Below are positions 36,127-57,315 of a stretch of 64,000 nt of DNA, one piece after another. The stretch comes from Eubacteriaceae bacterium. Its GTDB lineage: Bacteria; Bacillota; Clostridia; Peptostreptococcales; Anaerovoracaceae. Within the stretch, counting starts at the first letter, position 1; every line of letters starts with the position of its first letter. A model generated the notes under the pieces. The model did not search any database. It was not told the origin of the DNA and worked only from the letters and a program-made list of their open reading frames with translations. The stretch covers positions 186,001 to 250,000 of the forward strand of contig CABIXY010000005.1 of NCBI GenBank assembly GCA_902362805.1. Reading direction: 5' to 3'. The position numbers were made by a program, and so were the translations under genes.

Positions 36127-36163
36127 ACACACTCCCTATGTTAAATTAGTTTCTATATATACG

Positions 36164-36286
36164 GATAGTGCCCACAAATTGTTTGTAACAAGACGGCAAA
36201 GCTGTGCGCCCCGGAGCGTACTTGTACGCACGTGAGGAGTGCACAGCTGAAGCCAAACACCGTTACAGGCAATTTGGGGTGCTATC
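36164..36286. repeat. Long rod-like hairpin element between guaB and guaA
   Basis: The outer arms GATAGTGCCC and CAAATTG pair with CAATTTG and GGGTGCTATC. Then GTAAC pairs with GTTAC, GGC and AAAGCTGTGC with GCACAGCT and GCC, and the tip is GCGTAC-TT-GTACGC. The whole 123-nt gap sequence folds back on itself. It starts within the guaB stop codon. It may be a dispersed intergenic repeat or an RNA element that tunes guaA relative to guaB. Confidence 0.7.
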
Positions 36287-37790
36287 TGATTGCGTTCTGA
36301 CTGCTGTCACGAAGAATAACATCATGTGCTCCGCCCTCTACGATAGAAGTTGCAGATACCAACGTCAACTTCGCGTCTTTCTGCAGTTCCTGAATAGAGA
36401 GAACGCCGCAGTTGCACATGGTTGCTTTCACTTTGTTCAGAGAGAGGTTGACATTGTCGTGAAGTGAACCGGCGTACGGAACGTAGGAATCGACACCCTC
36501 TTCAAATTTCATCTTGGCGTCACCGCCCAGGTCGTATCTCTGCCAGTTGCGAGCACGGTTGGAACCTTCGCCCCAGTACTCTTTGACGTAATTTCCGTTG
36601 ATGTTCAATTTGTTTGTAGGTGATTCATCAAATCTGGCGAAATATCTGCCCAGCATGATAAAGTCCGCCCCCATGGCCAGCGCCAGGGTCATATGGTAAT
36701 CGTAAACGATGCCGCCGTCAGAACAGATTGGCACGTAAACGCCCGTTTTCTTGAAATATTCGTCTCTCGCTTCTGCCACTTCGATCACTGCGGAAGCCTG
36801 ACCGCGGCCGATGCCTTTCTGTTCCCTCGTGATGCAGATGGAACCGCCGCCGATACCGATTTTAACAAAGTCAGCGCCTGCTTCTGCAAGGAAGTTAAAG
36901 CCGTCTTTATCAACGACGTTGCCTGCTCCGATTTTGACAGTGTCGCCGTATCTTTCTCTCACCCATTTGATTGTATCCATCTGCCACTCAGAATATCCTT
37001 CAGAAGAGTCGATACAGAGCACATCGGCACCTGCCTCAACGAGAGCCGGGATTCTCTCTTCGTAGTCGCGAGTATTGACACCTGCGCCTACCACATATCT
37101 CTTGTGAGAATCGAGGAGTTCATTAGGATTTGATTTGTGATTGTCGTAGTCTTTTCTGAATACAAAATGAGTCAGTCTCTGGTTGTCATCGATGACAGGT
37201 ACTGCGTTAAGCTTATTATCCCAAAGGATATCGTTGGCTTCGCTCAGGGTGCAGCCTTCCTTTGCGTAAATTAACTTTTCAAAAGGCGTCATAAATTCAC
37301 TGATCTTCGTGTCTGGATCCATTCTGCTGACACGATAGTCCCTGCTGGTTACCAGACCGAGGATTCGGCCTTCTGCTGTTCCATCCTCTGTTACCGCAAT
37401 GGTGGAATGGCCTGTCCTGGCTTTCAGTTCTAATACATCCGTCAAAGTCTGATCCGGTCTCAGGTTGGTGTCGCTCTTAACAAATCCAGCCTTGTAGGAC
37501 TTTACGCGTTTCACCATCTCGACCTGGTTTTCCACGCTCTGTGAACCGAATATAAAAGAAATTCCACCTTCTTTTGCAAGTGCTACTGCCATCTTATCGT
37601 CTGATACGGCCTGCATCACTGCTGAAACCAGTGGAATATTTGCTGTAATCTTGGGTTCTTCACCCTTCTTATATTTTACAATAGGGGTTTTCAGGCTGAC
37701 ATTCTCAATTCTGCAGTCTTTTGATGAATAGCCTGGTACTAACAGATACTCGTTGAAAGTTCTTGATGGTTCATTAAAATAGTGGGCCAT
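36282..37790 (-). CDS. guaB: IMP dehydrogenase
   Basis: About 502 residues, normal length. It oxidises IMP to XMP with NAD+, the first committed step to GMP. The (beta/alpha)8 core is split by two CBS domains (residues about 100-220, with TVTEDGT-like and [12 protein letters not shown] segments). The catalytic loop is [15 protein letters not shown] with the active-site Cys near 315, and the flap has [17 protein letters not shown] chose ATG 37790 ([12 protein letters not shown]) because GGAGAGGAG is upstream. Operon with guaA is likely, separated by the hairpin element. I found no purine riboswitch upstream. Confidence 0.96.
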
Positions 37791-37950
37791 GTGTTGTTCT
37801 CCTCTCCTAAAAATAATATTGAAATACAAATTACTTATGAAAATAGACGGCTTTTTATAGCGCGTGCCGTCTCATGTTTCCAATTATTTTATACTATTTT
37901 ATTGTCATTTGCAAGGGTAAATTTACCCTTTCTCGCAGCAAAGATAAAAT

Positions 37951-37984
37951 CTTTCAAGCCGGTGCAAAGAGCCCGGCCTGAAAG
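37951..37984 (-). terminator. Intrinsic terminator after the lipoprotein gene
   Basis: On the minus strand CTTTCAGGCCGGG pairs with CCGGCTTGAAAG, followed by ATTTTATC. It lies 14 nt after the stop codon. Confidence 0.75.
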
Positions 37985-37997
37985 ACTAAAGATTTAG

Positions 37998-38537
37998 TTA
38001 TAATTTGAGATCTACCCAGTTGGTATTGCCTATGCTCTCGTCACCGTAAAACTCCATATAGTCCATGACAATCTCGTCCACATCTTCGTCTACAAGGAAC
38101 ACGATATCCCCTGTCAAAGTCTTTCCCGCTGCCAGGTCGGTTTCATCTGGGTACATATCGTCGTAAAAGCTGTCAGCTGTGTCCAAATGTCCGTCTTCTG
38201 ATGCTTCCATGTAGCCAATGAAGTCATAGTTGCCTGTTACAAAAGACTCTTTCGTGGTGTTTTTCACCGAAATATTGACAACTACGTATTTCTTGCCTGC
38301 ACCAGCAGACTTTCCACTCAGTTCTGTCTCTGTCTTGACGGAATTCACTTTCCATTCGAAGAAGGAATTCTTCATCGTGTCACCAACCATCCCGGTGGTA
38401 AGTTCCCCTTGATAAAACTCTGCTTCTTTCAGTTCATTTAAAAGCGGCCCGGGTTCTTTTTCGTCGCTTCCACATGCCGTAAATGTCAAAGCCAACATGA
38501 TTCCAAGCAAGACTGCCAGCAATTTTTTGTGTTTCAT
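37998..38537 (-). CDS. Lipoprotein with DUF4352-like domain
   Basis: A 179-residue exported lipoprotein. A basic start (MKHKK) is followed by a hydrophobic core and lipobox LTFTAC, so the mature protein begins at Cys22. Residues about 55-175 form a beta-rich domain of the DUF4352 type (FEWKVNSVKTE, KKYVVVNISVKNTTKE, LTGDIVFLVDED), usually an extracytoplasmic immunoglobulin-like fold. Role unknown. GGAGAAAGAT lies upstream of the ATG. It stands alone between guaB and the MBG protein gene. Confidence 0.85.
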   Translation of the reverse strand: MKHKKLLAVLLGIMLALTFTACGSDEKEPGPLLNELKEAEFYQGELTTGMVGDTMKNSFFEWKVNSVKTETELSGKSAGAGKKYVVVNISVKNTTKESFVTGNYDFIGYMEASEDGHLDTADSFYDDMYPDETDLAAGKTLTGDIVFLVDEDVDEIVMDYMEFYGDESIGNTNWVDLKL

Positions 38538-38629
38538 ATCTTTCTCCTATCACTGTTATCTTTAATTACAATATCATTATAACTTGAAGATTCCATCGAA
38601 TGCAAATGAGATTTTTGTGAAGATATGCA

Positions 38630-38658
38630 AAGTGGCCGCTCCCTTGGAGCAGCCACGT
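38630..38658 (-). terminator. Intrinsic terminator after the MBG protein gene
   Basis: On the minus strand GTGGCTGCTCC, loop AAG and GGAGCGGCCAC form a strong stem. It lies 31 nt after the stop codon. The T-run is imperfect. Confidence 0.7.
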
Positions 38659-38688
38659 TACTTGTTTTGTTATGAAATTTGTAGCAAG

Positions 38689-40482
38689 TTATTTTGCTTT
38701 GATCTTTTTATTGGCGGACCAATTACCAACTAGGGTATCTCCATTATCCAACACTTTGATAGCGCGAACTTTGACATAATATGTCTTTCCAGACGTGCGG
38801 TTTTTCAAAGTTGTTGAAGTCTTCGTATACTTGCTGTCGATATGTTTAACGTATTTAGAATAATACTTACCGTTTCTGCCGTATCTAACTTCATATTTTG
38901 TTGCACCTTTTACTTTTGTAATCTGTACTTTAATCTGCTTCTTGGCAGGCTTTGAAAGGGCTACGCCCGGTTTTACAGGTTTCACCTTCACAGTTACTAC
39001 CTTTGATGCCGGATCAGAAGTCTTTGTTCCCACAGTTTCAACAGTAATCTTTGCAACACCTGTATTTTCAATGATCACATATCCATCTTCATCAACAGTT
39101 GCAACCTCAGGATTAGCTGAAGTGTACTTGAAAGTAACGCCTGCTTCTGCAGTTGAAATTCTAGCATTGAGGTTGAATGAAACACTGTTCGTGTATCTTG
39201 TATAAGTAGTATATCCAGTAATCACTTTGCTGTCTGCACCTTTGATCTTGAACTCCAAAGTCTTTTCGCCAGCATATGTGCCAATCCCCTTCACAATCGC
39301 CTTGCCAGTACCTGCGTTTACATTGTTCTCATAAGTAACCGTGTAATCTGTACCCTGAACAAGGGTCTTAGCTCCATCTTTTACAGCAACCGCCGGTGTT
39401 TTTGCCGTTCCGTCATACTTCAGATTGTCAGCGCCAGTTAAAGCGATGTCTAATGTTGAAACGTCTTTGCCTGCAATTGTAAATGTGCCGCTGATTGCCC
39501 CAGTGAAGTTGCCTGCTTCAGTTGCAGTCAAAGTCAATGTCGCAGTACCCGTATTTACATTATTTGTTGCATTTGCTGTATAGTCTGTCGCCTTTAGGTC
39601 ATAGCCTCCAAGTTTTACTGTATAAGTAGGCATGATAGGCTGTCCTGTAGTGCCATAGGAATCTGGGCTAATCGTCAAAATAGCATCTGCTAATTTTGCT
39701 TTATTAATAGTAAAAGAAACACCTTTTGTTCCCGCATAGGAGCCAGCTCCTGTTACAACAATATTCGCAGTTCCAGCGTTCACATTGTTCATGTATTCTA
39801 CAGTATAATCCGTATTCTCTACAAGGGTTTTGCCGCCAAGTTCTACTCTGATTGCAGGTTTCTGCTCTGTTCCATCAAAAGTGTATGTCTGGTTGATCTG
39901 CTCAAAATATACAGCAGCTTTGCTGAAATCATTGGTTACTACATTGAACTGGTGCGTAATTGTTCCTGCATAATTTCCTTTGAATGAAATTGCTGCAGTT
40001 TCTGTTCCTGCTGTAAGTTTTTCTGCCGGCTGCTCAATCGTAAAGTCAGTGCCTTCTGCAAGGGTATTACCATTCCAAGTAATCTTTACGCCTTTAATTT
40101 CCTCTGCGCCTGTCAGCTGTGTAGGAATCGTGATCGTCGGCTTATTTGCGTTGCTGAAAGCTTTTGCAACAATGTTGAAGGCTGCTTCTTTGGTGCCTGT
40201 ATAAGCAGCAGTCTTTGCCTTTACAGTTACCTTTGCTTCGCCAACATTTATGTTGTTTTCATATACAACATCATAGTTTGCTGCTGCAACCTCTTTTCCG
40301 TCCAATGTCACTTTCACTTCTGGTTTAATTTCTTTTCCAGTATACGTAACATCTGTAATAGCGGCAATCGTCGCCTTACTTAAGTCAGTTGCAGTTGTTG
40401 CAGTGTCATCGGCAAAAATAGCCGCTGGCAATGCGCAAATCACCATTGCAACTGATAATACTAACGCCATTAGTTTTTTCAT
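38689..40482 (-). CDS. Secreted protein with MBG-like and Ig-like repeats and FN3-like C-terminus
   Basis: About 597 residues. A signal peptide covers residues 1-24 (MKKLMALVLSVAMVICALPA, cleavage after FA). Four to five tandem beta repeats follow, each with a YTGKEIKPEV or YDGTAKTPAV opening and a YENNVNAGTGKA-type turn, the pattern of MBG/Ig-like surface repeats. A Big2-like domain comes next (FKYTSANPEVATVDEDGYV), then a basic Tyr/Lys-rich FN3-like domain (GKTYYVKVRAIKV) ending WSANKKIKAK. No LPXTG or SLH motif. Its C-terminus resembles that of the neighbouring surface family, suggesting a shared way of holding to the wall. Start chosen at ATG 40482 after GAAAGG. Confidence 0.85.
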   Translation of the reverse strand: MKKLMALVLSVAMVICALPAAIFADDTATTATDLSKATIAAITDVTYTGKEIKPEVKVTLDGKEVAAANYDVVYENNINVGEAKVTVKAKTAAYTGTKEAAFNIVAKAFSNANKPTITIPTQLTGAEEIKGVKITWNGNTLAEGTDFTIEQPAEKLTAGTETAAISFKGNYAGTITHQFNVVTNDFSKAAVYFEQINQTYTFDGTEQKPAIRVELGGKTLVENTDYTVEYMNNVNAGTANIVVTGAGSYAGTKGVSFTINKAKLADAILTISPDSYGTTGQPIMPTYTVKLGGYDLKATDYTANATNNVNTGTATLTLTATEAGNFTGAISGTFTIAGKDVSTLDIALTGADNLKYDGTAKTPAVAVKDGAKTLVQGTDYTVTYENNVNAGTGKAIVKGIGTYAGEKTLEFKIKGADSKVITGYTTYTRYTNSVSFNLNARISTAEAGVTFKYTSANPEVATVDEDGYVIIENTGVAKITVETVGTKTSDPASKVVTVKVKPVKPGVALSKPAKKQIKVQITKVKGATKYEVRYGRNGKYYSKYVKHIDSKYTKTSTTLKNRTSGKTYYVKVRAIKVLDNGDTLVGNWSANKKIKAK

Positions 40483-40633
40483 ATTTTCTTTCCTTTCTAG
40501 TTTTATCAACAGATTTATTCTAACATAAATCTTTTACATTGTCACCAATACAATTCTTCCCATACCTATGTAGCTAAACGTAAACAAAATGTTCCGTTTT
40601 TAATCATTAGCTTACATTTTTTTGATTTTTCTG

Positions 40634-40788
40634 TATAATGTAATAGTGGATTGCAGACATTAAACTGGTCTCACAATCTACAATTTGCTTTGTTCAAAGC
40701 AAAACACCAAAATTCTATTAAAATGCAACCTAGCGTTATGCGGTTTTAATGGCGAGAGAAGGTCAAGGATACCCACTTGGCCTTTTTC
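40634..40788 (+). ncRNA. Candidate small RNA transcription unit
   Basis: The gap 40483-40958 holds a TATAAT box (40634-40639), a perfect palindrome TTTGCTTTG-TT-CAAAGCAAA near 40685-40704 and a terminator-like hairpin AAGGTCAAG-CTTGGCCTTTTT (40759-40788) with no coding frame between. A short RNA is possible. No -35 box is convincing, and the region might instead be the end of a lost gene. Confidence 0.3.
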
Positions 40789-40854
40789 TTGTTTTTGCAC
40801 TAACCATCATCAAAACAATTTAAAATTAGTTTCTTTATGTAAATCCCCCCCGCC

Positions 40855-41030
40855 CCTTGAGATCATTGTGAACTATCATTTCATTTGTAAGTTTTGTGCA
40901 AAAAAGCGCATAACTATAATCTTACAAAACGAACAAAAAAGAGGGAGGAATTCTTAAAATGAAGAAATTTTTAACAGTGCTTCTTGCATTGTCAGTTGTC
41001 TTCACTTACACAGTTGGTACTGCGTTTGCA
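40855..41030 (+). repeat. Surface-gene 5' cassette, copy 1 (promoter, UTR, RBS, signal peptide)
   Basis: The block is repeated almost base for base at 49239-49416, 53267-53436 and, inverted, at 61661-61826. It contains TATAAT (in CATAACTATAATC), flanking inverted arms TTTGTAAG and CTTACAAA, the ribosome binding site GAGGGAGG and the coding sequence for a 24-residue signal peptide starting [15 protein letters not shown]. Identity stops just after the signal peptidase site. Confidence 0.95.
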
Positions 41031-43517
41031 GCTGTACCAAATCCTGCAAGTACTAACGCAGTGGACTCTGAAAATGCATTCAAAGAAGTAGTTAAAGAAG
41101 TAAAAGATAGCATTTCATATGACGGAAAAGGCTATAACCAAAAAGCCGATGAAGGTGCTGGCTATCTGTCAAGAGAAGCAATCGAAGCACGTATTGACGA
41201 ATTGGCTAAGCCATATATCCAGGCTATTCGCAATGCAGATAACGCATGGGATTCAACATGGTCGACAGTTGCCACGGCAGCTGATTTCAAATCAGAAACA
41301 AAGCTTTTTGATGCTGCTGATGCTGCTGGTATCGTAGAAATTTTCAAGCTTCAGTATGATATCGAACTGAAAGCAGCCAACCTTGCAATGGCTCCTGATC
41401 TGAGTGGTTATGCCGCTGCAGACAAGGTAAAAATCAATGCGGTGATTGACACTCAGGTTGCAGCTATTGAAAATGCAAAGCTTACTATTTCAAATTCTAC
41501 AACAGTAGACGATGTAAAAGGTGCAATTGACGCGTTTAAAGCTGCAGTAAAGGCTGTTCAGGACGAAATGAAAAAGTACAATACTGCAACGACTGATGCA
41601 GAAAAATTAGCACAAGCAAAAAACGATGCGATTTTTGCCTTGAATCAGGCAGCTGATGCATTTACAGACGCAGTGGAAACAGCTTACAAAAACTCCGTCA
41701 ATGCAACAGAAGTTGCAAGATTAGCTTCACTTGACAAGGATGTTGACAAAATGGCTGCAATGTATGAAGAGAAAATCGAAGAATTTGCAGCAAAAGAAAA
41801 CATGTCGGCAACAGATAAAATCAACGCATTAGGACAGATTGCTGAATTGGCTAAGGCTAGATTTGCAATTGCTAATTTCTACACCGATTTAACTGTATTA
41901 AGCAATGCAGATGTATTATTAGCATATGCAGATACAGTTGCAGCTGAGAAAAAAGCCGCGATAGGTCCTGATGGTACGAAATTGTACGACAACACTGATG
42001 TTGATGTAAAGTTAGCAGAAGCAAAGAAAGCGGTAAATGATGCAGCATATGCAGTAATCGCTACTGGCGCAGCTGCTCCTACAAAAACAACGGTTACGGA
42101 TGTCTTTGCTACATTAGAAGCGAAAACATTCCCACTTGCCGCATACAAGAAAAAGGCAATTAAGACATTTACTGAAGGAAAATATGCTACAGTTAATCCA
42201 GCAGCTACTGCATGGTCTGGGGACAGATATGACAAAGTAGTCGACCTTCAGGACAAAGCATCCGATGAAATCTTGCTCGCAGAAACGACAGATGCAATTG
42301 ATGCTATCGCAAAACAGGCAGTCAAAGACATCGATGCAATTTTGACTGATGCACAGATTGATGCATTGGAGAGTAAGACTGAAACAAGAATCAATGTTCT
42401 AGGCTATGGCACTGCCTTTGATAAGTATTTTGATGCAGTAGTAGGTACTACCGGCTATTCTGCACAGATCAAAGCAGACGCTATCGATGCGGCAAAACAG
42501 ATCTTTAAAGACGCTGTCGTTGCTACGGAAAATACAAACATTACCTATGCAGAAATTGATAAAATCATCAAGGACAACTATAATACTGCTTTAGCAGAGT
42601 TAACAAAGGCTAAGACAAAGGCTGAACTTGTAACTCAGGCAACAGCTGTAGATACACTCATCAATGCACTTCCTCCAACAATCACAATTGCTGATAAGGA
42701 TGCTGTTCTGGCTGCACAGAAGGCTTTCGAAGATTATCTTGATTTGCCAGGAACTGATAAAGCAGACATTTCTTATGGAAATAAGCTGAAGACAGCAATG
42801 GCCACGTTGATTAACCTAGAGTCAAAAGCAGTCAAAGATCAAATAAAAGCACTTCCTTCAACAATTACTGTTGCAGATGCAGAAAAGGTAGAAGCTGCAA
42901 AAGCCGCCCTCGATGCTCTCGAAGCAACATATGGCGACTATGATGGAAAAGATAAATTTGGCGAAAACACAGATTTCGCATATGTATTAACTGTTGCTCC
43001 ATCAAATGCTGGAGACGTAAAAGACGCATTGAAGGCTTTAGAAACCGCTAAGCTTAAAGATGCCGCTGACAAAGTGAAAGCATTAGGATCAAATCCTACT
43101 GTTAAAGAAGTCAAAGCAGCAAGAGATGCTTATGACGCATTAAAGCTTGAGACAAAACTGTTATTTAACGATGAGTTATATGCAGATCTTCTTAAAGCAG
43201 AAAAGGCCGTCGATAACGCTGTAAAATCATTTAAAATCGTAGCATCCTCAAAACTCTATAAGGGCAATAAGATCCGTGTTAAATGGAGAATTGCAGAAGG
43301 TGACGTTGATGCAATAGACGGTTACAAAGTCTACAAGTCAACAAAGGCTCAGTCTGGCTACAAGTATATGGGCAAGACTAAGAAACTCTACATGGACAAC
43401 AAGAAAGGCCTGAAAAAGGGCAAGAGAATGTACTACAGAGTAAGGGCATACAAAGTAATCGACGGTAAGACATATTACTCCGACTACTCAAACAAAGCAA
43501 ACAGAATTTACAAATAA
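40959..43517 (+). CDS. Secreted surface-family protein 1 (852 residues)
   Basis: The signal peptide [20 protein letters not shown] plus TAFA is followed by a long Ala/Lys/Asp-rich helical body (residues about 30-760) with degenerate repeats of the type LPPTITIADKDAVLAAQKAF and LPSTITVADAEKVEAAKAAL. The last ~95 residues are a basic Tyr/Lys-rich FN3-like domain (KASSKLYKG-like start, YMDNKKGLKKG, ending NKANRIYK), the type also found in the remnant at 45763-47572. No LPXTG, SLH or membrane anchor. The repeats resemble helical bundle modules common in Clostridia surface proteins. Probably secreted and wall-associated; ligand unknown. Confidence 0.85.
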   Translation: MKKFLTVLLALSVVFTYTVGTAFAAVPNPASTNAVDSENAFKEVVKEVKDSISYDGKGYNQKADEGAGYLSREAIEARIDELAKPYIQAIRNADNAWDSTWSTVATAADFKSETKLFDAADAAGIVEIFKLQYDIELKAANLAMAPDLSGYAAADKVKINAVIDTQVAAIENAKLTISNSTTVDDVKGAIDAFKAAVKAVQDEMKKYNTATTDAEKLAQAKNDAIFALNQAADAFTDAVETAYKNSVNATEVARLASLDKDVDKMAAMYEEKIEEFAAKENMSATDKINALGQIAELAKARFAIANFYTDLTVLSNADVLLAYADTVAAEKKAAIGPDGTKLYDNTDVDVKLAEAKKAVNDAAYAVIATGAAAPTKTTVTDVFATLEAKTFPLAAYKKKAIKTFTEGKYATVNPAATAWSGDRYDKVVDLQDKASDEILLAETTDAIDAIAKQAVKDIDAILTDAQIDALESKTETRINVLGYGTAFDKYFDAVVGTTGYSAQIKADAIDAAKQIFKDAVVATENTNITYAEIDKIIKDNYNTALAELTKAKTKAELVTQATAVDTLINALPPTITIADKDAVLAAQKAFEDYLDLPGTDKADISYGNKLKTAMATLINLESKAVKDQIKALPSTITVADAEKVEAAKAALDALEATYGDYDGKDKFGENTDFAYVLTVAPSNAGDVKDALKALETAKLKDAADKVKALGSNPTVKEVKAARDAYDALKLETKLLFNDELYADLLKAEKAVDNAVKSFKIVASSKLYKGNKIRVKWRIAEGDVDAIDGYKVYKSTKAQSGYKYMGKTKKLYMDNKKGLKKGKRMYYRVRAYKVIDGKTYYSDYSNKANRIYK

Positions 43518-43536
43518 TCTGTACATGAAGTCTATT

Positions 43537-43565
43537 AAAAGAGGCCGGGAATCCGGCCTCTTTTT
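43537..43565 (+). terminator. Intrinsic terminator after surface gene 1
   Basis: AAAAGAGGCCGG, loop GAAT and CCGGCCTCTTTTT form a strong hairpin with a T-run. Confidence 0.92.
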
Positions 43566-43576
43566 AGTGCTCGATT

Positions 43577-44863
43577 TCAAATTGTCATGACTGCATACAA
43601 TGGGATGTTGACCAGCCAGTCCTGTTCCCTGTAGGCTGCCATGGACGTCCTCACTGCAGTTTCGGGATGAAATTTGTCACAATAGGCTTTTAAGCTCCGG
43701 GAACGTAGGTTCTCTTCCGCCTTGACCTCTATGGGTACGATCTGTCCCCTGCGCTGTATGGTGAAGTCAATCTCATTATGGGATGATGCAGAATAATAGT
43801 ACGGGATATATTCAGTATCGGAAACTAACTGCTGATATACATATTGCTCGGTCAGTGCGCCCTTAAATTCTGTAAATATGCTACTCCCTCCAAGGATTGC
43901 CTCCGCATCCAGATCGCTCATGGCCCCTAACAGTCCTACATCAAGCAGGAATATTTTGAAGACGGAAAACTCCATATAAGCTTTCAATGGCATGGCCGGC
44001 TTCTGTACCCTATAGACTTTGCTGATCAGTCCACAGTCCAGGAGCCATTCTATAGCAGTTTCAAAGTCCCTGGCTCTGGCGCCCTCTTTGATTTGTCCGA
44101 AGAAAAACTTCCTGTTCTCTTTGGCCAGCTGGACGGGCACCGAGTTCCACACCATCCTAATCCGTGGCAGCATATCTCTGTCAGTATGTTTGCTGAAGTC
44201 GTCCTCGTACATCTCCAGAATGGCTTTCTGGATTGAACGAACTTCTACGATGTCCCCTTCATCAACATAGCTTGCCACAGCTTCAGGCATGCCTCCAATA
44301 TAATAGTAAAGCTTCAGCCACCTGATATATTTCTCTGAAAAGACGTCAATCATCTTGTAATCCTTTTGGCCCAGCAGTGACGCAAGCTGTTCCTCCCCCA
44401 TGGCAGTCAGGAACTCCCTGTAGTTCATAGGATAGATGTCCAGCGTGTCAACCTTCCCCACTGGAAAGGACGTACCTTCGTGGATTGCTACGCCCAGCAG
44501 GGAACCTGCCGCTACGATGGCATATTCCGGCGCTTCTTCACAGAAGTATTTCAAGGAGGAGATGGCCCTGGGCACCTCCTGTATCTCATCAAAAATAATC
44601 AGCGTATCCTCTGGACGGATAACTTCCTTTGTCTCTATGTTGATGGCCTGGATAATGCTCCTGATATCAAAGTCGCCTTCGAACACCCGCTGCATCCTTG
44701 AATTGCGGTCAAAGTTGACATAGGCCACATTCTTGAACTGCCTGGCTCCGAACTCTTTCATAATCCAGGTCTTCCCCACTTGGCGAGCGCCTTTTAGAAT
44801 CAGAGGCTTCCTGTTCTTCTTTCTTTTCCACCGAACGAGTTCGTCCATGATCTGTCGTTCCAT
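43577..44863 (-). CDS. AAA ATPase with DUF4143 domain
   Basis: About 428 residues. The N-terminal AAA-type P-loop domain has Walker A LKGARQVGKTWIM (residues about 24-36) and Walker B TLIIFDEIQEVP near 90. The C-terminal DUF4143 part carries the EFKGALTEQYVYQQL, ASSHNEIDFTIQ and VPIEVKAEENLRSRSL segments, which form a restriction-endonuclease-like fold. Such proteins are very common, often with unknown targets. Start chosen at ATG 44863 (MERQIMDELVRWKRKKNRKP) after GGGGGA. It runs convergent to surface gene 1, separated by the terminator. Confidence 0.9.
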   Translation of the reverse strand: MERQIMDELVRWKRKKNRKPLILKGARQVGKTWIMKEFGARQFKNVAYVNFDRNSRMQRVFEGDFDIRSIIQAINIETKEVIRPEDTLIIFDEIQEVPRAISSLKYFCEEAPEYAIVAAGSLLGVAIHEGTSFPVGKVDTLDIYPMNYREFLTAMGEEQLASLLGQKDYKMIDVFSEKYIRWLKLYYYIGGMPEAVASYVDEGDIVEVRSIQKAILEMYEDDFSKHTDRDMLPRIRMVWNSVPVQLAKENRKFFFGQIKEGARARDFETAIEWLLDCGLISKVYRVQKPAMPLKAYMEFSVFKIFLLDVGLLGAMSDLDAEAILGGSSIFTEFKGALTEQYVYQQLVSDTEYIPYYYSASSHNEIDFTIQRRGQIVPIEVKAEENLRSRSLKAYCDKFHPETAVRTSMAAYREQDWLVNIPLYAVMTI

Positions 44864-45024
44864 AATATCCCCCTTTGTTGCTTTTCCTATATTATACCCC
44901 ATCCATACAGTGATTTCACTATTTTTGAATATATTTTATTACATTTACTCGTTTTTTTGAAGATAAACCCATCTTATACTACTAAAATTTTAACAAAGCA
45001 TAATAGCACGGCAATTCCAACGTC

Positions 45025-45762
45025 TCCATACCCTTTTCTGGATTGAGAATGCGACTGATTAAGCTCGACGATAGAAGTTTAGATATGCTATTTCAATCCA
45101 CGCATCCATGAGGATGCGACTTTACCTGCTATACCTGTAGGTAATAATAAGATAGATTTCAATCCACGCATCCATGAGGATGCGACCACAGACAAAAGCA
45201 CGAGTATAGAAGATTTGAAATTTCAATCCACGCATCCATGAGGATGCGACTTACTGAATCAGTATCCGAATACACGTAATCCTCCATTTCAATCCACGCA
45301 TCCATGAGGATGCGACACAGGCGTAAGATAACAAAGCCTAGGTCAAATTTGATTTCAATCCACGCATCCATGAGGATGCGACGGACTTTGGGTATAAATG
45401 GTGCTGTTATGATAGGTAATTTCAATCCACGCATCCATGAGGATGCGACTTTTACAAGTTTGATGCGGGATATTTTAACGATTTATTTCAATCCACGCAT
45501 CCATGAGGATGCGACTTATATTTAACAAGTTGCTCACCTAATTTTTGTATTTCAATCCACGCATCCATGAGGATGCGACGTAAGTCAACACCTAAGTATC
45601 TTATGTATATGCAAATTTCAATCCACGCATCCATGAGGATGCGACGGTATCGGTTTATTTAAAGGAGACAATATGGATATTTCAATCCACGCATCCATGA
45701 GGATGCGACCTTGATTGAATCGGTCTTAATATGCGCAACTCTATTTCAATCCACGCATCCAT
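45025..45762 (-). CRISPR. CRISPR array 2: 10 full repeats plus a truncated one fused to a surface gene
   Basis: Ten perfect 31-nt repeats start at 45090, 45156, 45220, 45286, 45352, 45419, 45485, 45549, 45615 and 45679, with spacers of 33-36 nt. In crRNA direction the repeat begins GTCGCATCC, has a CGCATCC/GGATGCG stem and ends GTGGATTGAAAT, a type I-C-like repeat. A decayed repeat lies at about 45025-45055 (keeps GAATGCGAC). At the leader side the eleventh repeat (45743-45762) keeps only 20 of 31 nt and is joined to surface-protein coding sequence. So the array has no leader and is probably frozen. Confidence 0.97.
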
Positions 45763-47572
45763 TGCTGCAAAAAAAGCAACGATTGCTTCCAACATTGCTG
45801 CATTCAAGGCTTCCGCAACGTACTTGAATGCCTCGGCTAATGATAAAGCAGCTTACGACGAGTATTTAGCTGCATACAATACGGCCCAGACCTATCTGGC
45901 AGAAAATGTTGCAAACCACACTGTTGGTGGTATTAATTCGTCTGATACAAACTTGATTGCCAATGTGAAAAAAGCTGCTGAAAAGATTGAAGCCGCAGCA
46001 GAATTCAAAGGCATGAAAAATAAAGATGGCTCTGACAAATACGATGCCGATAAAATTGATGTAAATCTTAAAACCATCTTGACTGCTTTGTATAGCGGAA
46101 CCACCACATCGGTCGACTTAACTGATGATGCCCTCATCACTTATGTTACAAACGCAGAAAAGGTGAATACTAAGGCAGTTTTAGCTAAAAAGGTTGATAA
46201 AGATGCAATGACTTATGACAGCAAGGCATATTATGCATTAGAATGGAAAGCAGTAGAAGCTGCCCTTGATTCATACTATGCCGCAGTTGATGCTGCTATC
46301 GTTGCTTCGGACTTAACTGACGCAAAGGCGACATTAGATAAAGCAATAGGTAAAATCGACACTTCTGCTACAGTTTTAGGCTACTATGCTGCTAGCGGAA
46401 AGCTGAACACAGCTGCAACATCCGAATTTGCCAAACTGAAGGTGTACGCACAGCTGCTTAATACGGAGCAGGGGACAAAAGACCCTTTAGTATTTGCTAT
46501 TACAGATATCCTTGCGAATACTATGGATACAACTGGTGCAGACAATACATTGGTTAAATTCTATATTGATAAGGATGCAAGGACCGCTGCTGAAATCACA
46601 GCTTTGAATAGTGAAGTAAAAGCATTATTAGGTTCTTCCAAAACATCCAGTGCACTTAAAGATGAGGCTAAGAATGTTGTCGCAATGATTGAGGCACTTC
46701 CTGCTAAAGCAAACATTACGGTTGCTGACAAAGCCGCTATCGAAGCTGCATATGACGCTTACGAGGCTTTGAATCCAGCATACAGAGTCTATGTTACAAA
46801 TCATAGCACTTTGAAAACGGCAATCGACACCGTTATGAAAGCTGAAAAGGATGAAATTCTGAAGGCAACTAAGAACTTCCCATCTGTGTATACTGTTACC
46901 ATTGCAGATAAGGATGCGATTCAGACTGTTGCAGATATGATTGATGCCTACAACGACACTGAAATGTATGATATCAGCACAAAGTATACAAATGCCAGCG
47001 TAACTAGCTTGTTAAATAAAATCAAGTCCTTAGAATTTGATGCAGTTAAGGCTGCCGTTAAGGCGATTCCAGAAGCAGATAAGATTGTTGCTGGTGATAA
47101 AGATGCAATCGAAGCAGCGAGAGCCGCTTACGATGATTTTCTGACCAACTATGGGGACTCTCTGACAAGTTCAGATGTTTCTACCTTAGCTGGATATGAA
47201 AAGAAAATTGTTGAAGCCGAGAAGGTTTTAGCAAAAGCTTTATCAGAAGATATGGCTAAGAAAATCAAAGAAATCGAATCTTTAAAAATTGTTGCTTCTT
47301 CAAAACTTTACAAAGGTAAGAAGATTCAGGTAAAATGGAGAATTGCTGACGGTGATGCTTCTGCCATCACTGGATACCAGGTTTACAAATCAACCAAGGC
47401 AAACAGCGGTTACAAGTTCATGGGTAAGACTAAGAAATTGTACATGGACAATAAGAAGAGCCTGAAGAAAGGAACCAGATACTTCTATAAGGTTCGCGCA
47501 TATATCGATGTTGACGGTGAGAGATACTTCTCTGACTGGTCAAACAAAGCAAACAGAATCTACAAGAAATAA
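45731..47572 (+). pseudogene. Surface-family gene 2, lacking its 5' cassette and fused to CRISPR array 2
   Basis: Family coding sequence begins at 45763, directly after the truncated repeat. The frame reads upstream into the last spacer, where an ATG (45731) gives the chimeric start MRNSISIHASIAAKKATIAS, with SIHAS encoded by the repeat. There is no signal peptide, ribosome binding site or promoter. The body (about 500 residues) has the family's Ala-rich helical repeats (ALPAKANITVADKAAIEAAY) and the NKANRIYKK type of FN3-like C-terminus, and is otherwise undamaged. This is either a dead gene or a silent cassette for recombination. Confidence 0.9.
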
Positions 47573-47593
47573 TCTTGTTCATCTGGTGTACAT

Positions 47594-47621
47594 CACGGGA
47601 AGGCTTTATAGCCTTCCCGTA
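47594..47621 (+). terminator. Intrinsic terminator after surface gene 2
   Basis: ACGGGAAGGCT, loop TTAT and AGCCTTCCCGT form a strong hairpin followed by ATTTG and further T. The 190 nt to the next gene hold nothing I recognise. Confidence 0.85.
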
Positions 47622-47812
47622 TTTGTTTTCTTTTCAAAATCATCGTATTATGACTGAAAAGAAAGTAGCTACCATTTTTCTATTTGTAATAAAGGGTTGT
47701 CAACGCTTCTAATTACATCCCCTTCGATTTCAACGCTCAAATTATCTCAGCATAAAAATAACCACCAGCTGATTATTTCCTGGTGGTCATGAATGTACTC
47801 CATAATTATTCT

Positions 47813-48112
47813 TTAGCAGCTTATCCTGCTCTCGTATGCATAACTTTTTGCATACATGGTCTCCGGAGCAATATCGATAGTACCGTCAGCCCATGTTACA
47901 ACGCCGTATTGGATCTCCGGCTTCAAGAATACGGTTATGTTCTTTAGTGGACGGAATGCCTCATATTCCAGTAATCCGGCAGCATCAAAAATCCGCTGTT
48001 CCCCGGTATCAAAAGTCAGCAGCATTGTCATGTTATCAAAGGCCCGGACTTCCCTTATCCTGATTCCGTGTCTCAGTTCTCCCGCATATGCGATTCCATC
48101 AACAATATACAT
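47813..48112 (-). CDS. DUF2442 protein
   Basis: A 99-residue protein with the DUF2442 pattern: IREVRAFDNMTMLLTFDTGE, then RIFDAAGLLEYEAFRPLKN and VVTWADGTIDIAPETMYA. It follows the DUF4160 gene by 11 nt with GGAGG before its ATG. This pair is often found together in mobile regions and has been suspected to be a toxin-antitoxin-like unit; that role is inference here. Confidence 0.88.
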   Translation of the reverse strand: MYIVDGIAYAGELRHGIRIREVRAFDNMTMLLTFDTGEQRIFDAAGLLEYEAFRPLKNITVFLKPEIQYGVVTWADGTIDIAPETMYAKSYAYESRISC

Positions 48113-48123
48113 CCTTTTACCTC

Positions 48124-48390
48124 CTATTTTAAAGGGCTTATCTTTTCAAACGGTTCCCCACGTACCGCATTATTCCATGCTCTGTATGCCTCTTCTTCGT
48201 GAAGGGCGAGCCATCCAACAACCATACGCAGCTGTTTATGTGGGAGTGACCCCGCAAGCAGGTCCCCATCAATGCCGACAGAGGCCTCATACTCGCCATA
48301 ATACACATGCACATGCGGCTTGTTATGCTGTACATTATCCTGAAACAGCATCTTAATCACCATTCCTTCAAATCTACTTAATTCAGGCAT
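48124..48390 (-). CDS. DUF4160 protein
   Basis: An 88-residue protein with the DUF4160 signature: PELSRFEGMVIKMLFQDN, HNKPHVHVYYGEYEASV (His-rich strand) and the tail ALHEEEAYRAWNNAVRGE. AGGAAAG lies upstream of the ATG. It is the first gene of the DUF4160-DUF2442 pair. Enzymatic function unknown. Confidence 0.88.
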   Translation of the reverse strand: MPELSRFEGMVIKMLFQDNVQHNKPHVHVYYGEYEASVGIDGDLLAGSLPHKQLRMVVGWLALHEEEAYRAWNNAVRGEPFEKISPLK

Positions 48391-48528
48391 TCGTTAAGAC
48401 TTCCTTTCCTGTTATATCTGTTGTTTTTATTTTACCATAAAGGGACACTATTTAAAACACAAATAAAGAATCTTTCACAAAATCCAGCAATTCCAACACT
48501 TCCACGTTCTTACCCGAGATTATTGTAA

Positions 48529-48885
48529 ATTTCAATCCACGCATCCATGGGGATGCGACGTGGTCTTTCCACCCAGTTTGGACGCATCAAATGTATTTCA
48601 ATCCACGCATCCATGAGGATGCGACTTAGCTAAAGACTGACGAGGGCGTTCTAAAATCATATTTCAATCCACGCATCCATGAGGATGCGACAAGAGGAGC
48701 ACGTGCACTCAATAGGAAAATTGAAATTTCAATCCACGCATCCATGAGGATGCGACGTAATTAGCGTTAGCGTGTGTAAATCCGCCTTATTTCAATCCAC
48801 GCATCCATGAGGATGCGACTACCCCCTCCAGTTTCAGAATCAGTACCAGGAAAAATTTCAATCCACGCATCCATGGGGATGCGAC
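48529..48885 (-). CRISPR. CRISPR array 3: 6 repeats of 31 nt, 5 spacers, leader retained
   Basis: Repeats start at 48529, 48595, 48661, 48726, 48789 and 48855, with spacers of 32-35 nt. The repeat is the same as in array 2. The two outermost copies (48529 and 48855) share one variant base in the loop (CCATGGGG instead of CCATGAGG). The leader lies on the right. No cas gene is near. Confidence 0.98.
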
Positions 48886-49045
48886 GCAAAATATGGTAGT
48901 CACGGGAGAAGCACACACTAAATACAGAAACCCTATATACGACCAAGTCTTTAAAGTGACGATTCATTCCTATATTTTCGGCATATTTCACCATATCGAG
49001 GTGCGAAAGACCCAGGGATTCCATGTTCACTTGCCTTTCGCACCT
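48886..49045 (-). promoter_or_regulatory. Leader of CRISPR array 3 with the conserved hairpin
   Basis: It begins GCAAAATAT next to the first repeat and ends in the inverted repeat AGGTGCGAAA (48999-49008) and TTTCGCACCT (49036-49045), with CCCAGGG and ATGTTCACTTGCC between. The distance from the repeat to the hairpin is 113 nt, exactly as in array 1. The remaining ~190 nt to the surface cassette hold only AT-rich sequence and the motif near 49213 discussed below. Confidence 0.78.
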
Positions 49046-49238
49046 GCAAATTTCACTGACTTCACACTTGCTATATATCTTTATTCTACCACAGATCTGT
49101 CAGAAATGGCATGTTACTTGAATATCCAACAAAACCCATACTTTACCCGCCATATTTCCTTCGTACTCCTATTACAAATAAACAAGCCTTCCTAAAACTA
49201 CATTAAAAACACCGTAATCCCAACGTTCCCTCGCCCCT

Positions 49239-49416
49239 CCCTTGAGATCATTGTGAACTATCATTTCATTTGTAAGTTTTGTGCAAAAACGCGCATAACT
49301 ATAATCTTACAAAACGTACAAAAAAAGAGGGAGGAATTCTTAAAATGAAGAAATTTTTAACAGTGCTTCTTGCATTGTCAGTTGTCTTCACTTACACAGT
49401 TGGTACTGCGTTTGCA
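49239..49416 (+). repeat. Surface-gene 5' cassette, copy 2
   Basis: Same block as at 40855-41030 with only a few differences (GCAAAAACGCGC, CGTACAAAAAAAG). It supplies promoter, ribosome binding site and signal peptide to surface gene 3. Confidence 0.95.
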
Positions 49417-52400
49417 GTAAGCGGCACAGCAGATACCAAGTACAGTTTAAGCGATGTAGAGACTGCAATTTATGAGCAGGCACGGACCAATATTGAAATG
49501 CTGAATACGGTCAAAAGCAACTTCATGACAAACTATGCCACGAATAAGGTGACTTATGACAAGAGTGGAGTTAATGAAGTTGAATTTTCCAAGGCGGCTG
49601 TAGAAAAAGTGATCGATGCGGTCTTTGCTGATCTAGCAAAAAAAATCACTGATAAAGCTGACCAGCAAAAAGAAGAAGCTTTGAAAGCGAGCCAGGCAGT
49701 AAATGCTGAAGCAACCTATACGTATACACCAAATGCGGGTGACTGGGTGGATGATGGTACTTTGTTTACGGATGAAGCCGGAACGCTTGCTACCGTTGCT
49801 AATGCTTTTGATGAGGCTACCGACGTAACTTCTATTAACTTTGACGAAAAAGTTGCTGCAGGTTTATATACTATTTCTGGTACCGCAACAAAACTGACAA
49901 ACGAATCATTTGATTCAGGCGCTACTTATTACACGCTAAAGACGTTATATACTAGAGCAGAGGACACTCCTGCAACAACAGCATTCAAAGGATATTTCGA
50001 AAAAGCGAAGTCGAAGCTTTTGAGGATGCAGTGAATACTGTTTATGAAGACTATGACACTGCAGTAGAGATCAAGTCATATATTGATACTGACTTAGCGA
50101 ACGGTTCATCCAAATATGCAAAGAATCTGTTAACTGCTGAACATGCTGCTCAGAAAGCAGAAATTACTGCACTGATTGACAAAGTGAATACAGCAAACTA
50201 CAGCAATGAAGTTCCTGCTAATGCAGACAAGGATTCAGACTATTACTTAGAAACAGCTGAAGCTGCTGCATACAGTTTAAAAGCTGCTGGATATTACAGC
50301 TACAGAGCAAGAGTTGAGAGTGTTATTGCAAATGCGAAAAAAGAACTGGCTAAAAATGATATTACCAGCACAATGACCGTAGTTCAAATCGCAGAAAAGG
50401 TTAAAGCTATAGCAGGTGAGGATGCATTCTACGCAACAAATGTATCTAATATCATCTTCGCTCCAGCGGCTACAGCTGTTCCAACAATTCTTGAAGAAGG
50501 ATGGACCACAGAAGATTTTGCAAAAGCACAGGAAAAATTAGTTGCTGCGCTTAAAGCATATCTTGATGATGCAAAATCCAAGGAGTACGATGCTGCATCT
50601 GATGTAGTAAGAGAAATGCAGAGAAAGGAAGCACAGGGTGAAACCCTGACTGCCGCAGAGAAGAAAGCACTGAAAGATGCTCAGGAGAAACTTGCAGCTT
50701 TAGACGGTGACTATGCTTCACTTACCGAAGTATATACATTTACTGCTAAAAATGATGTTGCCTATAACACAACCACTAAAATTAAAACTTATCTTCAAAG
50801 TCCTGACTGGGCTAACGATTTTCCTACAACTGCAGTGAAAAAATCATTGGCAGTTGTAAAAGCAGCCAAAGTTGACGAGTTCAACAAAAAAGCAGAAGCA
50901 TTCAACCAAATGACTGGTCTTGATGGAAAGCCAATGTATGATAAAGATGTGGTTTCTAAGGCGCTTACCGTTGCAATAAAAGCTGTTTATGCAGCAGCTG
51001 ATGCAGATGCGGTAAAGGCTGTTCCGTTTAATCCAAATCCATCACAAGATGTCGTAAAATCTGAAATGAAAAAAGTAATCGGGTCTATCGCCGATGCAAC
51101 AAAAATCGAGTTTTCCAAGAAATTGTATCCAACAATTGCTAACTGGTCAACTGCAGGTTACGACAAAGACAAAACAAAAGAAGTTAAAACTATTATTGAA
51201 GATACAAAGGCAGCAGTAAAAGCGGCTAAAACTGTAGATGCTGTAGATGAAGCCTTCATTGCTGGATATACAAAATATGATGCAGTTCCTACCCTTCAGG
51301 ATAGAGAAGATGCACAGGCTGAAAAAGCATACACTGACAAAGTCGCAGAGTATAAAACTGAATTAAAAATTCTGATTAATGCCAAGGCCGAAAGATACGG
51401 TACAACATTTGCAACAGATTTTGGTATTGATGCAGCTACTCTCTTAACTAACCTTGAGGGAACTAATGTAGCGAATACAGGACTGTATGCTGCATATACT
51501 GTTGAAGACATGAAAACCATGTACGATGATGCTGTGGCAGCTGTAAACAATCTGAAGCCAATAAAAGATATGGATGCAGAATTGAATGCAATCAACACTG
51601 CTATTGCTGCAGTCAAAGCACCAGTAACAGCTGATTCAAAGAATGAGATTCTTGCGCTGAATAAGAGAGTAAAGGAGTTTAAGGAGTCTGCTGAAATCAC
51701 TAATTACACAACAACTGCACTTAGAGAATCTTTACTTAAATCTCTTACCGATGCAATTAAGGTAATTGATGAAAAGGAAATTACAGATGCTGTTGCAGAA
51801 ATCATGAAAGATGGAAAAATTGACTTAAGTGAAAAATCTGCAGTAAAAGCAGTGATTGCTTTGGTTGATGCATACAGCGAAAACTATGATGTAGATTTAG
51901 CAGCAACAGTTGGCGATACAAAAACTGTATATGACCATGACTTTACTAAACAGGAGGTTGCCGCAGTCGAAGCAGCAATTGCAAAAATTGATGCAACTGC
52001 AAAGCCGCTTGATACAAACGCTATTAAAGCTGCGAGAGAGGCTTATGATGCTTTAGGCGAAGCTACAATCAGCACAGAAATGTATTCAAAACTTCTAGCA
52101 TTGGAGACTCTAGCTACTGAAGCAAAGAATACTAAACTAGTTACAGGTGTCAAGGATACCACAATCAAAGCTTCATCCAAAGCATACAAAGGTAGAACAA
52201 GAGTTTCATGGAAGAAATCCTATGGTTACAAGGTAGATGGATATCAGGTATACAGATCCACAAAAAAGAGCAGTGGATATACCAAGATGGGAACTACTAA
52301 GAAGACTTACATGGACAACAAGAAGAACCTGAAGAAGGGTACTAGATACTATTACAAGGTTCGCGGCTACAGAGTGATTAATGGAGAAACCGTTTACACG

Positions 52401-52436
52401 CAGTGGTCATCAAAAGCAATCAGAACTGCTAAATAA
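49345..52436 (+). pseudogene. Surface-family gene 3, one-base frameshift in an A5 tract
   Basis: The gene begins with the full cassette and reads 230 codons, then stops at 50034. The rest is in the next frame up to 52436. The break lies at GAAAAAG (A5 at 50000-50004): one more A gives [20 protein letters not shown], in register with both sides, and a total of exactly 1031 codons. The body carries family helical repeats, the C-terminus is the [18 protein letters not shown] type. It may be a phase-variable off state, a recent mutation or a base-call error. I annotate it as one interrupted gene. Confidence 0.88.
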
Positions 52437-53436: not shown

Positions 53437-56227
53437 GGCTGCACCTGAACCATCAAAGGTTCTGACAACTGAACAGGCAGAAAAGCTGATCAACGATACT
53501 GCACAAAAAACTGCAGATGCTGTTGACCTAGCTGCTGCTAATGCAAAAAAAGCTGTGGACGTAAGCAAATTTAGTACTTACAAAAGTATTACAGAAGAAG
53601 CCTTAAAATCTTTTATTGATGAACAAGCTACAACAATAAAAGGAAATATTGAAACTGCAAGGCAGACACAGATTCAGGCGTTGAGGACTGCAATTGCTAG
53701 CACAACAGATTATGCTGGCTGTACGACCGATGATTCGACTGATGATGCTAAATATGTAAAACTAGCTGTATATTTAGCAGCTGTCTCTGAGGGTGAGTTT
53801 GATGACATGAATAAGCTTGCAAAGTATGTAAGTATTGAACCTGGTCAGCCAGATGGTCTTGCGGTAGACAGTAATGAGCTCAAAGGAATCGCACAGACAG
53901 GTTTTGATCAGATTAAAACTAAAACCATTAGTGCAGTTAACGCAATTGACCTTAACTCATATTCCAAAGAGGTTGAAAGCGGAGAGTGGCAGAGCAACTA
54001 TGACAAAGCTGCTGCTGATGTGGCAACCGCATTAAAGTCACTGAATGCTGCTTCAGTAAGCAAGTCAACTTCTGCTGCAGATTGTTCAACTGAAGCGGAG
54101 AAAATCATTGCAATTTATGTGGCTGGTATAAATGCTGCTGAACCTACTGGATTTTTATGGGTAGGTGGTACGGATGCTTATTCAAATACATATACTGGTT
54201 TGGTTAAAATTCCAACGGTAGGTGATTTGAATACAATTGCCAAAAAGTTCGAATATGCGAAGAATGTGGTACTGGCTAAAATAAAGTCTGCTGTTGAAAA
54301 TGGCAGAGCTACTGCTTTGAAGGCTCAGAATGATATCATTATTACTGAAGAGTTAAAGGCTAAGCCTAACCAGACAGTTATTGATGCTGCTAAAGCAGAG
54401 ATTGCTAACATTGAGAAAGAATATGACGCGATGTATGAAGCTCTTGTATACAGAGTCAATGCGTTAAAGGCAAATCAAGCTGGACTTGACGAATTAGGAA
54501 CATTCAGCGGTTCAGTCTTTACACCGAAAGCTCCTTATGATACAGAGCAGCACATTTTGGATTCTGTTGGCAGACCGTTGGCAAAAGCCATGGTAGAAAA
54601 AATTGCTAAGCTGAAAGAAGAAGCCGAATTGGCAAAATCATATATCACTTTAACAGGTGGTACTATGCAGGATGTTGAAGATGCTTTAGCTACAGCGATT
54701 GACAATGTATATAAAGCAACATCAGAAAATGCAGTTAACGCTGTATCCCTTAAAGTCGGTGGTGCGATTACTTCATATATTGATAGAATCAATGAATTAA
54801 TCGGTAACAGTGTTGATCAGGTAAAGATTAACAACAAGCCATATGATAACGTATTTAGCTGGACAGCCAACATCTCCTCTAAGTTTGAAGCAGAAAAGTA
54901 TGCTGAGGTTAGAAAGATTGCAGCAGATGCTAAAGAAGCAATTAAGTCGGCTGAATCTATTAGTGATGCTGAAACTGCTTTTGTTGCAGCCTACGAAAAA
55001 TATGCAGCAGTTCCTACTAAGACAGATTTGGCAACTGCACAGGCTCAATTGAGTGCTGACAAAGCAAAGTATGTAACTGATATTCAAGCTTATGTTGCAT
55101 ATAAACTTGCAAACATGGACGCTGATGATAAGGCTATTTATAATGAGACTACTTTAAAGAGTAACCTTGTTGCAGCTTTTGACAAGGCGTATACAAAGGC
55201 TGAACTAGATGCAGCATACCAGGATGCAAAAGCAGCTGTTGACGCATTAAAGACAAAGGCTCAGTTAGAAACTGAAAAAACTGCAGTTCAGACCAAAGTT
55301 CTGGCTATTAACGGTGCTGTAACAGTTGCTGATAAAGACAAAGTTGCAGATGCAAAGAAATCAGCGGATGACTTCAACACATATATTGATGATTACGCAG
55401 TTGATACTAGCAAAGTTGCAAAATATGTCACTACTTTAATTGATGGCTATTTCGCTACAGTACAGAATGCAGAAGCTAAAGCTGTAAAAGATGCGTACGA
55501 TGCAATCGATAAAGATAAAAGAGTATCATTAGATGAGGCAGATGCAGTTAAGGCACTGAGAACCGCATTTGATGCATATGTAGAATACTATTACGGCGAA
55601 GCTAATAAAACTGCGGCAACTCCGACGGTTGATGTAAAAGATAATGCTGGTGGTATTAAAGTTAGCGCCGTTGATATGAATAAAATGGAAGAGGCTCTTA
55701 CTGATCTTCAAGTTGAAGAAGTAGTCAAATTAATCGTTGCATTACCTACAACTATAGCAAGTAAAGCTGATAAGGCAAAAGTAGACGCTGCAAGAGTTGC
55801 ATTTGATGCTCTTCCAAAAGCGCAGCAACTTGAACTTATGGCTGACGATGAACAGTTCGGAGGCTACGGCATCTATGCTAAACTTGTTGTTTGCGAAAAA
55901 TATGCTGAGCAGTATTATAACGATTATCTAAAAGATGGCGTTAGAGACACTACACTCAAAGCATCTTCAAAAGCTTATAAAGGCAGAACCAGAGTTTCTT
56001 GGAAGAAATCTGCAGGATTCAAGGTTGACGGATACCAGGTATACAGATCCACTAAGAGAAACAGCGGATATACCAAGATGGGAACCACAAAGAAGATGTA
56101 CATGGACAACAAGAAGAACCTGAAGAAGGGTACTAGATACTACTACAAGGTTCGTGGCTACAGAACCATTGATGGCAAAACTGTTTATACTCAGTGGTCA
56201 TTAAAGGCAATCAGAACCGCTAAATAA
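53366..56227 (+). CDS. Secreted surface-family protein 4 (953 residues)
   Basis: The standard family signal peptide is followed by an Ala/Lys/Asp-rich helical body (residues about 25-855) with repeats such as [20 protein letters not shown] and [20 protein letters not shown]. The last ~95 residues are the FN3-like domain of the KAIRTAK type. The 3' end, from about 55930 through the terminator, is nearly identical at DNA level to that of surface gene 5, which lies inverted downstream. The central body is very different between the two. Probably secreted and wall-associated; no anchor motif. Confidence 0.87.
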
Positions 56228-56285
56228 TTTAGCTTAACTGAATACTTTACAGCTCAAGAAGGTCGGAATTCCGGCCTTCTTTTTG
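55930..56285 (+). repeat. Inverted near-identical 3' block, arm 1
   Basis: C-terminal coding sequence, 3' UTR and terminator of surface gene 4. It matches 58759-59112 in inverted orientation with only scattered differences. The terminator AAGGTCGGAATTCCGGCCTT lies at 56257-56285. Confidence 0.92.
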
Positions 56286-56985: not shown

Positions 56986-57315
56986 TTTTTCAATACATTT
57001 CCTAGTTAATGTAAATTACTGTATTTTTTTGAATATATAGTGAACGAACCAAATAAATATAAATGCCTAATAACTTATTGTCTTGTATCTGCCATTTATT
57101 ATGCCTATGGCTCTTTTCCAACATTTTTATCTATCTATAAGAAATCATCAATTAGTACTTTCTTAGTACATTTTGCTCTTAACATTCCACAATGTCATTA
57201 CAAATTTTCACATTTTTATTAAATTCCAAAAATACTATTTTTTTGCTGATAAATTTTGGTATATAATAGTTTTAAAACCCAATTACTGAAATATTATAGG
57301 CAAGGAGGAATGTTT

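Follow-up and report, generated by a model that had tools for sequence, protein, structure and literature searches.

The 64,000-nucleotide stretch of DNA analysed here (the window) contains a CRISPR array whose eleventh repeat is cut short and continues directly into the coding sequence of a surface-type gene, and we consider this join quite probably the scar of one illegitimate deletion within a unit of array, leader, surface promoter and gene. The array, termed array 2, consists of ten identical 31-nt repeats of type I-C-like form at 45090..45709, separated by spacers of 33-36 nt that are all different. It is assigned to the minus strand, the strand expected for transcription from the side of the lost leader, an orientation based on the leader element of array 3 and on the cas-adjacent array of Emergencia timonensis. 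At the trailer end a probable decayed terminal repeat (45040..45055, minus strand), recognised by eye with 11/12 last bases matching, is followed by an extra 34-nt spacer (45056-45089, minus strand), likewise placed by eye. At the other end the last spacer, 33 nt and thus of normal length (45710..45742, minus strand), leads into repeat 11, which starts at 45743 and matches the 31-nt repeat for exactly 20 nt, to 45762 (45743..45762, minus strand), before the sequence continues as TGCTGCAAAAAA. From 45763 this is the body of surface gene 2 (45763..47572, plus strand), in frame to a stop at 47572 and followed by a terminator-like hairpin of 11 pairs (47595..47620, plus strand). The repeats of arrays 2 and 3 are not chance matches, since a search allowing up to 3 mismatches finds 16 full copies across the window, 10 of them in array 2 and 6 in array 3, whereas 100 shuffles gave none. 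An ATG at 45731, within the last spacer, opens a plus-strand frame of 613 aa (45731..47572) that reads MRNSISIHASIAAKK... and has the N-terminus MRNSISIHAS. Direct reading of 45743-47572 therefore bears out the original prediction that the repeat stops after 20 of its 31 nt and continues as in-frame surface coding sequence, and the translation agrees with its proposal of a chimeric ORF, begun in the spacer, in which the repeat encodes ISIHAS.

Array 2 has the regular repeats, the unique spacers of even length and the hairpin of GTCGC...GTGGATTGAAAT form characteristic of type I-C, the repeat form being judged against the E. timonensis array that neighbours the type I-C cas genes. Arrays 2 and 3 resemble type I-C arrays in repeat form, hairpin, spacer length (32-36 nt) and, at array 3, the leader element; unlike such arrays, array 2 is leaderless and has one cut repeat, and PADLOC finds no cas protein among the 30 window ORFs scanned. 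The leader element is a 50-nt sequence (GGTGCGAAAG ... CTTTCGCACC) at 49000-49049, 114 nt past the final repeat of array 3, the intact counterpart of array 2 (six repeats, 48529..48885, minus strand), and within the array 3 leader region (48886..49233, minus strand). It recurs at array 1 (2418-2466, 92%), at both E. timonensis island arrays (98% over 47) and beside the E. timonensis cas-adjacent array (97.8% over 46 bases). In a search of the window it is present at arrays 1 and 3 only, a placement which indicates that the right side is the leader side and that array 2 has lost its leader, as had been proposed; we therefore file array 2 as a relic and not as an active array. Array 1 itself (1859-2302), which keeps its leader element, uses another repeat (ATTTCAATCCACTTGCTCCGC...), one that resembles the repeat of an E. 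timonensis array at 1,429,920. E. timonensis encodes Cas_Csd1 (PF09709, E 1.5e-108), its type I-C cas cluster is tabulated at 1,453,194-1,461,082 (PMC10213047), and its cas-adjacent repeat differs from the island repeat.

The order array, leader, promoter, gene is seen in all three examinable arrays that have the island repeat and a leader. The distance from last repeat to ATG is 459 bp at array 3 and 448 bp at each of the E. timonensis arrays A and B, in all three the surface promoter points opposite to array transcription, and the two E. timonensis leader-promoter stretches are 98.9% identical over 447 bases. At array 3 the upstream region and promoter segment (49234..49344, plus strand) precede surface gene 3 (49345..52436, plus strand), which has a frame break near 50030, giving ORFs 49345-50034 and 50031-52436; the break reflects either decay of the gene or a sequencing error. 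The corresponding promoter and signal-peptide segment is found at four other window genes and not before gene 2, in agreement with the earlier claim that the join had stripped the gene of both.

An intact gene 2, anticipated by the original prediction, does exist elsewhere. A protein search with the chimeric ORF returned 61 relatives among 7,992 scored candidates, and the best of these, P0004 (902 aa, on a 6,023-base ENA contig), aligns with the window 3' of the join over 603 residues, of which 600/603 are identical, with no gap; the gene 2 body, together with the last two bases of the repeat, corresponds to P0004 residues 300-902. The 299 N-terminal residues of P0004 are absent from window gene 2, and tblastn at E 0.01 finds no counterpart of residues 25-299 in the rest of the window. 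P0004 carries the family signal peptide of 24 letters, which the window encodes at 40959, 49345 and 53366 and, on the opposite strand, at 61731. With the frame still open and only three differences from P0004, the sequence suggests that the join is a young event.

The predicted structure of P0004 (mean pLDDT 83.5, pTM 0.62) is mostly helical with a C-terminal Fn3-like domain, and residue 300, at the join, sits inside the predicted helix 286-315. Pfam identifies no family in surface genes 1, 2 and 4 or in either ORF of gene 3; a profile search of solved structures gave three weak matches, the best an Fn3-like protein at E 0.11, and a fold search gave one match below E 0.001, a titin Fn3 domain. 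The signal peptide, and relatives named 'fibronectin type III domain-containing protein', suggest a cell-surface location for the protein. Related genes were found in 6 of 296 genomes of the family of G001 (E 1e-20, three candidates scored per genome), the best being 50% identical and so too distant for reading the codons of the intact allele, and a scan of genome contigs for gene 2 found one locus, in E. timonensis, at 44% identity. No relative of P0004 was found in IMG/VR, and megablast of window 40800-50100 against plasmids gave no match.

Intact forms of both partners are thus at hand, in P0004 and in array-leader-promoter units at positions other than the join site. We propose that the ancestral unit would have been arranged as at array 3 and gene 3, with a leftward type I-C-like array, a leader, an opposed surface promoter and a surface gene with its signal peptide, and that a deletion would have fused one repeat to codon 300 of gene 2. 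The minimum loss would be about 1.36 kb, comprising 11 nt of repeat, some 450 nt of leader and promoter and some 900 nt of coding sequence, and it would be larger if further repeats or genes were included. As E. timonensis has no array at the join position, the starting unit is modelled on other positions; array 2 may once have stood directly before gene 2, but a longer deletion, with further genes lost, would explain the join equally well. The outcome would be a leaderless array and a silent, 5'-truncated surface gene.

Computed from the P0004 protein, the form in which the intact allele is known, the stretch shared by the two partners at the join is 2 to 9 bases, and the junction most likely lies across a shared 8-mer, GCATCCAT (45755..45762), possibly with one base more. 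P0004 residues 298-300 are A-S-I, as at the join, where the repeat encodes A-S. Without homology this A-S match would arise by chance with a frequency of about 0.011 (from P0004 composition) or 0.013 (from the P0004 AS dipeptide frequency), an improbability that makes a homology of 8-9 nt the probable one, whereas codon usage alone for A-A-S-I favours fewer shared bases, with at least 8 in about 6% of cases and 2-3 in about 85%. The repeat hairpin has a folding energy of -8.5 kcal/mol as DNA, equalled in none of 200 shuffles, and the cut lies in its loop. GCATCCAT forms the 5' arm and half the loop of this hairpin, which suggests slipped replication at the repeat hairpin as the likeliest mechanism. 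Homologous recombination between surface genes was considered as the direct cause of the join and rejected, as the partners share no more than 9 bases there. In this respect the original prediction, that recombination in the surface island had cut into a CRISPR locus, is not borne out as phrased; the broader idea that rearrangement of the island affects the arrays does find support, in two flank-matched positions that each have an array in one species and none in the other.

The short homology would also suit end joining, and since a type I-C cas operon is present in the relative E. timonensis, self-targeting by such a system could have cut the surface locus and left the ends to be joined into a deletion. 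We regard this Cas-driven origin as very unlikely: none of the 16 spacers convincingly matches the window or 74 kb of E. timonensis, a search that the lost DNA lies outside, and the best spacer match (25 bases, 88%, E 0.041, in gene 4) is about what chance would give in 16 such searches. Against the 74 kb of the E. timonensis region the 16 window spacers gave matches of 11 bases only, and the exact cores of 5 of the 16 were found in no IMG/VR contig. When 45090-48900 was compared with phage records, four records matched, the best at E 2e-3 and the others at E 0.03-0.3; the best match, in a faecal record, is to the repeats of a similar array and not to spacers. MT838487.1, an unverified faecal phage record, carries an array with a close repeat (CACGCTCTCCATGAGGAGAGCG core), and for this reason the record may be bacterial DNA rather than phage.

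The deletion reading presupposes that the join is present in the cell, and we judge it very likely real. The evidence is the assembled sequence, and there is a slim chance that array 2 and gene 2 are each intact in the strain and were fused by a chimeric molecule in the library or by a wrong contig join. Arrays and surface genes are both repetitive, the second island array of the E. timonensis draft contains N and a stretch present in duplicate, window gene 3 has its frame break, and an intact allele of gene 2 exists elsewhere. However, assembler k-mers are usually much longer than 9 bases, and the at most 9 bases that the partners share at the join are far below usual assembly overlaps. Furthermore the spacer before the join has the usual length, and the gene body continues undamaged as far as its stop and the terminator-like hairpin.

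The join has the look of damage and not of a new gene. Although no stop interrupts the frame across spacer, repeat and gene, and a promoter-like site lies upstream, it is extremely unlikely that a new, functional cytoplasmic protein is made from the chimeric ORF. That site, at 45121-45148 (9/12), is weak and lies on the plus strand within array 2, upstream of the join; a terminator-like repeat hairpin (45496-45513) separates it from the ORF. Across 43400-49500 there are 20 promoter-like sites against a shuffle mean of 14.7 (sd 4.6), not clearly above shuffles. No ribosome-binding site was seen by eye before the ATG at 45731, the ORF has no signal peptide, and its gene-derived part starts within a predicted helix. 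With promoter-like sites near shuffle level, these features make it improbable that the chimeric ORF is a working gene. A gene body without promoter, ribosome-binding site and signal peptide should be silent, and an array without a leader should gain no spacers and yield little crRNA, so that a silent gene 2 remnant beside a leaderless array is the most likely outcome.

Such a remnant might be kept as a sequence donor. Antigen gene families such as vlsE and pilS have promoterless silent cassettes, and gene 2 resembles these in being truncated at its 5' end, a part that is near-identical in its paralogs; unlike them, it is the single such copy, and donated tracts are not seen. Several window paralogs have promoter and signal-peptide segments that are nearly identical and resemble one another at their 3' ends, and the remnant is open over 603 codons. 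Outside the 3' part, however, they are only 33-42% identical to gene 2, so no recent donation is shown, and an open frame would be expected in a young pseudogene too. A donor role therefore carries very little probability, and the scar is better explained as a known kind of event, a short-homology deletion, in an unusual place.

Decay of CRISPR loci by deletion is described for Escherichia and Salmonella (PMC2886076), where the parts of the account available to us report loss of cas genes, of whole arrays and of spacers, with leaders remaining. Array 2 is like these loci in decaying by deletion; unlike array 2, none is described in those parts with a join within a repeat to coding sequence. 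A literature search of titles and abstract openings, with few subscription papers or preprints, found no repeat-coding fusion and no arrays in surface-gene promoters. The closest published counterpart is the array of E. timonensis SN18 (Marseille-P2260) at 1,380,564-1,381,183, whose repeat, GTCGCATCCTCATGGATGCGTGGATTGAAAT, is listed in Table 6 of PMC10213047 and is the same 31-nt repeat as that of array 2. Like the window it has the same surface island and the order array, leader, surface promoter; unlike array 2 it has its leader, and it occupies a position that has no array in the window. The main text of PMC10213047 contains none of the terms surface, fibronectin and S-layer.

The host of the window, a gut bacterium, is probably an Emergencia close to E. 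timonensis, judging from two matches: its IMPDH gene shares 92% identity with its E. timonensis SN18 counterpart, the top match among 349 family genomes searched (314 matched), and for GMP synthase a 99% match named Emergencia sp. is among the best 120 of 7445. The E. timonensis island has the same repeat in two arrays, A and B, with 17 repeat matches. In E. timonensis C8, at about 1375.5-1376.2 kb, N precedes a repeated copy of about 328 bases that span array and leader, which probably marks a contig join left unresolved; the N and the duplicated stretch in the second island array make the number of repeats there uncertain. Two positions can be matched between the species by their left flank, with E. 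timonensis coordinates computed from extracted stretches, and both differ in the presence of an array. At position 1 (window 34586-40802, E. timonensis 1,387,475-1,381,258, 86%) array A is present in E. timonensis and no array in the window; at position 2 (window 43227-45033, E. timonensis 1,371,184-1,369,376, 88%) array 2 is present in the window and none in E. timonensis, where a promoter match lies within about 10 bases of the left flank. Arrays with their leaders have therefore been gained or lost before particular surface genes.

At array 3 and at A and B of E. timonensis the trailer end meets the surface upstream segment at one and the same point, around ATCATTGTGAA; this segment recurs after the leader, both copies in array A being identical over 24 nt; the trailer end of array 2 breaks off slightly earlier. 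Window 40802-40859 and 45033-45090 are the points at which array plus leader is present or absent, with the surface upstream segment copied on both sides; the E. timonensis stretch compared is C8:1366000-1385999. Gain and loss of arrays would likely proceed by recombination between the repeated promoter segments. Among 13 genomes from the genus one contains the island repeat, as does one among 349 from the family (the completeness of the other genomes not being given), so that the arrangement can be compared in one relative only. The surface promoter is present in 7 of the 12 other genus genomes and the repeat in none of the 12, and the pattern thus rests on two genomes.

Further features mark the surroundings. 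Between surface genes 1 and 2 lies an AAA_14/DUF4143 ATPase gene (43577-44902, minus strand), in the same place in E. timonensis, whose product matches the PADLOC candidate defence family PDC-S01 (E 2.6e-189), and between gene 2 and array 3 lies a DUF4160/DUF2442 gene pair (47813-48390, minus strand). Inverted repeats of 369 nt (95%) at 55915-56283 and 58760-59128 lie at the 3' ends of two opposed surface genes and flank an IS200-type transposase and a tyrosine recombinase (56415-56879, 57256-58395). In E. timonensis the stretch with the recombinase runs the other way relative to the surface genes, a difference that inversion of the segment may explain. A tandem array of a 91-base unit, in about 3.4 copies, occupies 21493-21806.

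The fixed point at which arrays meet the surface upstream segment raises a wider, speculative reading, which we think unlikely, that array and leader are a module of the surface promoters. The module would sit at a fixed upstream point, and recombination between promoter segments that are nearly identical would carry copies of it from one paralog to another; the divergent promoter pair would let a phage memory and a surface protein, possibly a phage receptor, be inherited together and perhaps regulated together. Were this so, the scar would be a failed member of a moving set of arrays. As a scar with both partners identifiable, the join itself shows a route by which an array can lose its leader and become a dead-end memory. 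Of greater interest than the scar are its surroundings, where arrays lie at surface promoters in positions that change. Type I-C-like arrays of Emergencia that are remote from cas genes lie immediately upstream of the promoters of a surface family, and their positions differ between the two species, which makes it a testable proposition that CRISPR arrays may be spread, lost and perhaps regulated through the recombination of an antigen-like gene family.
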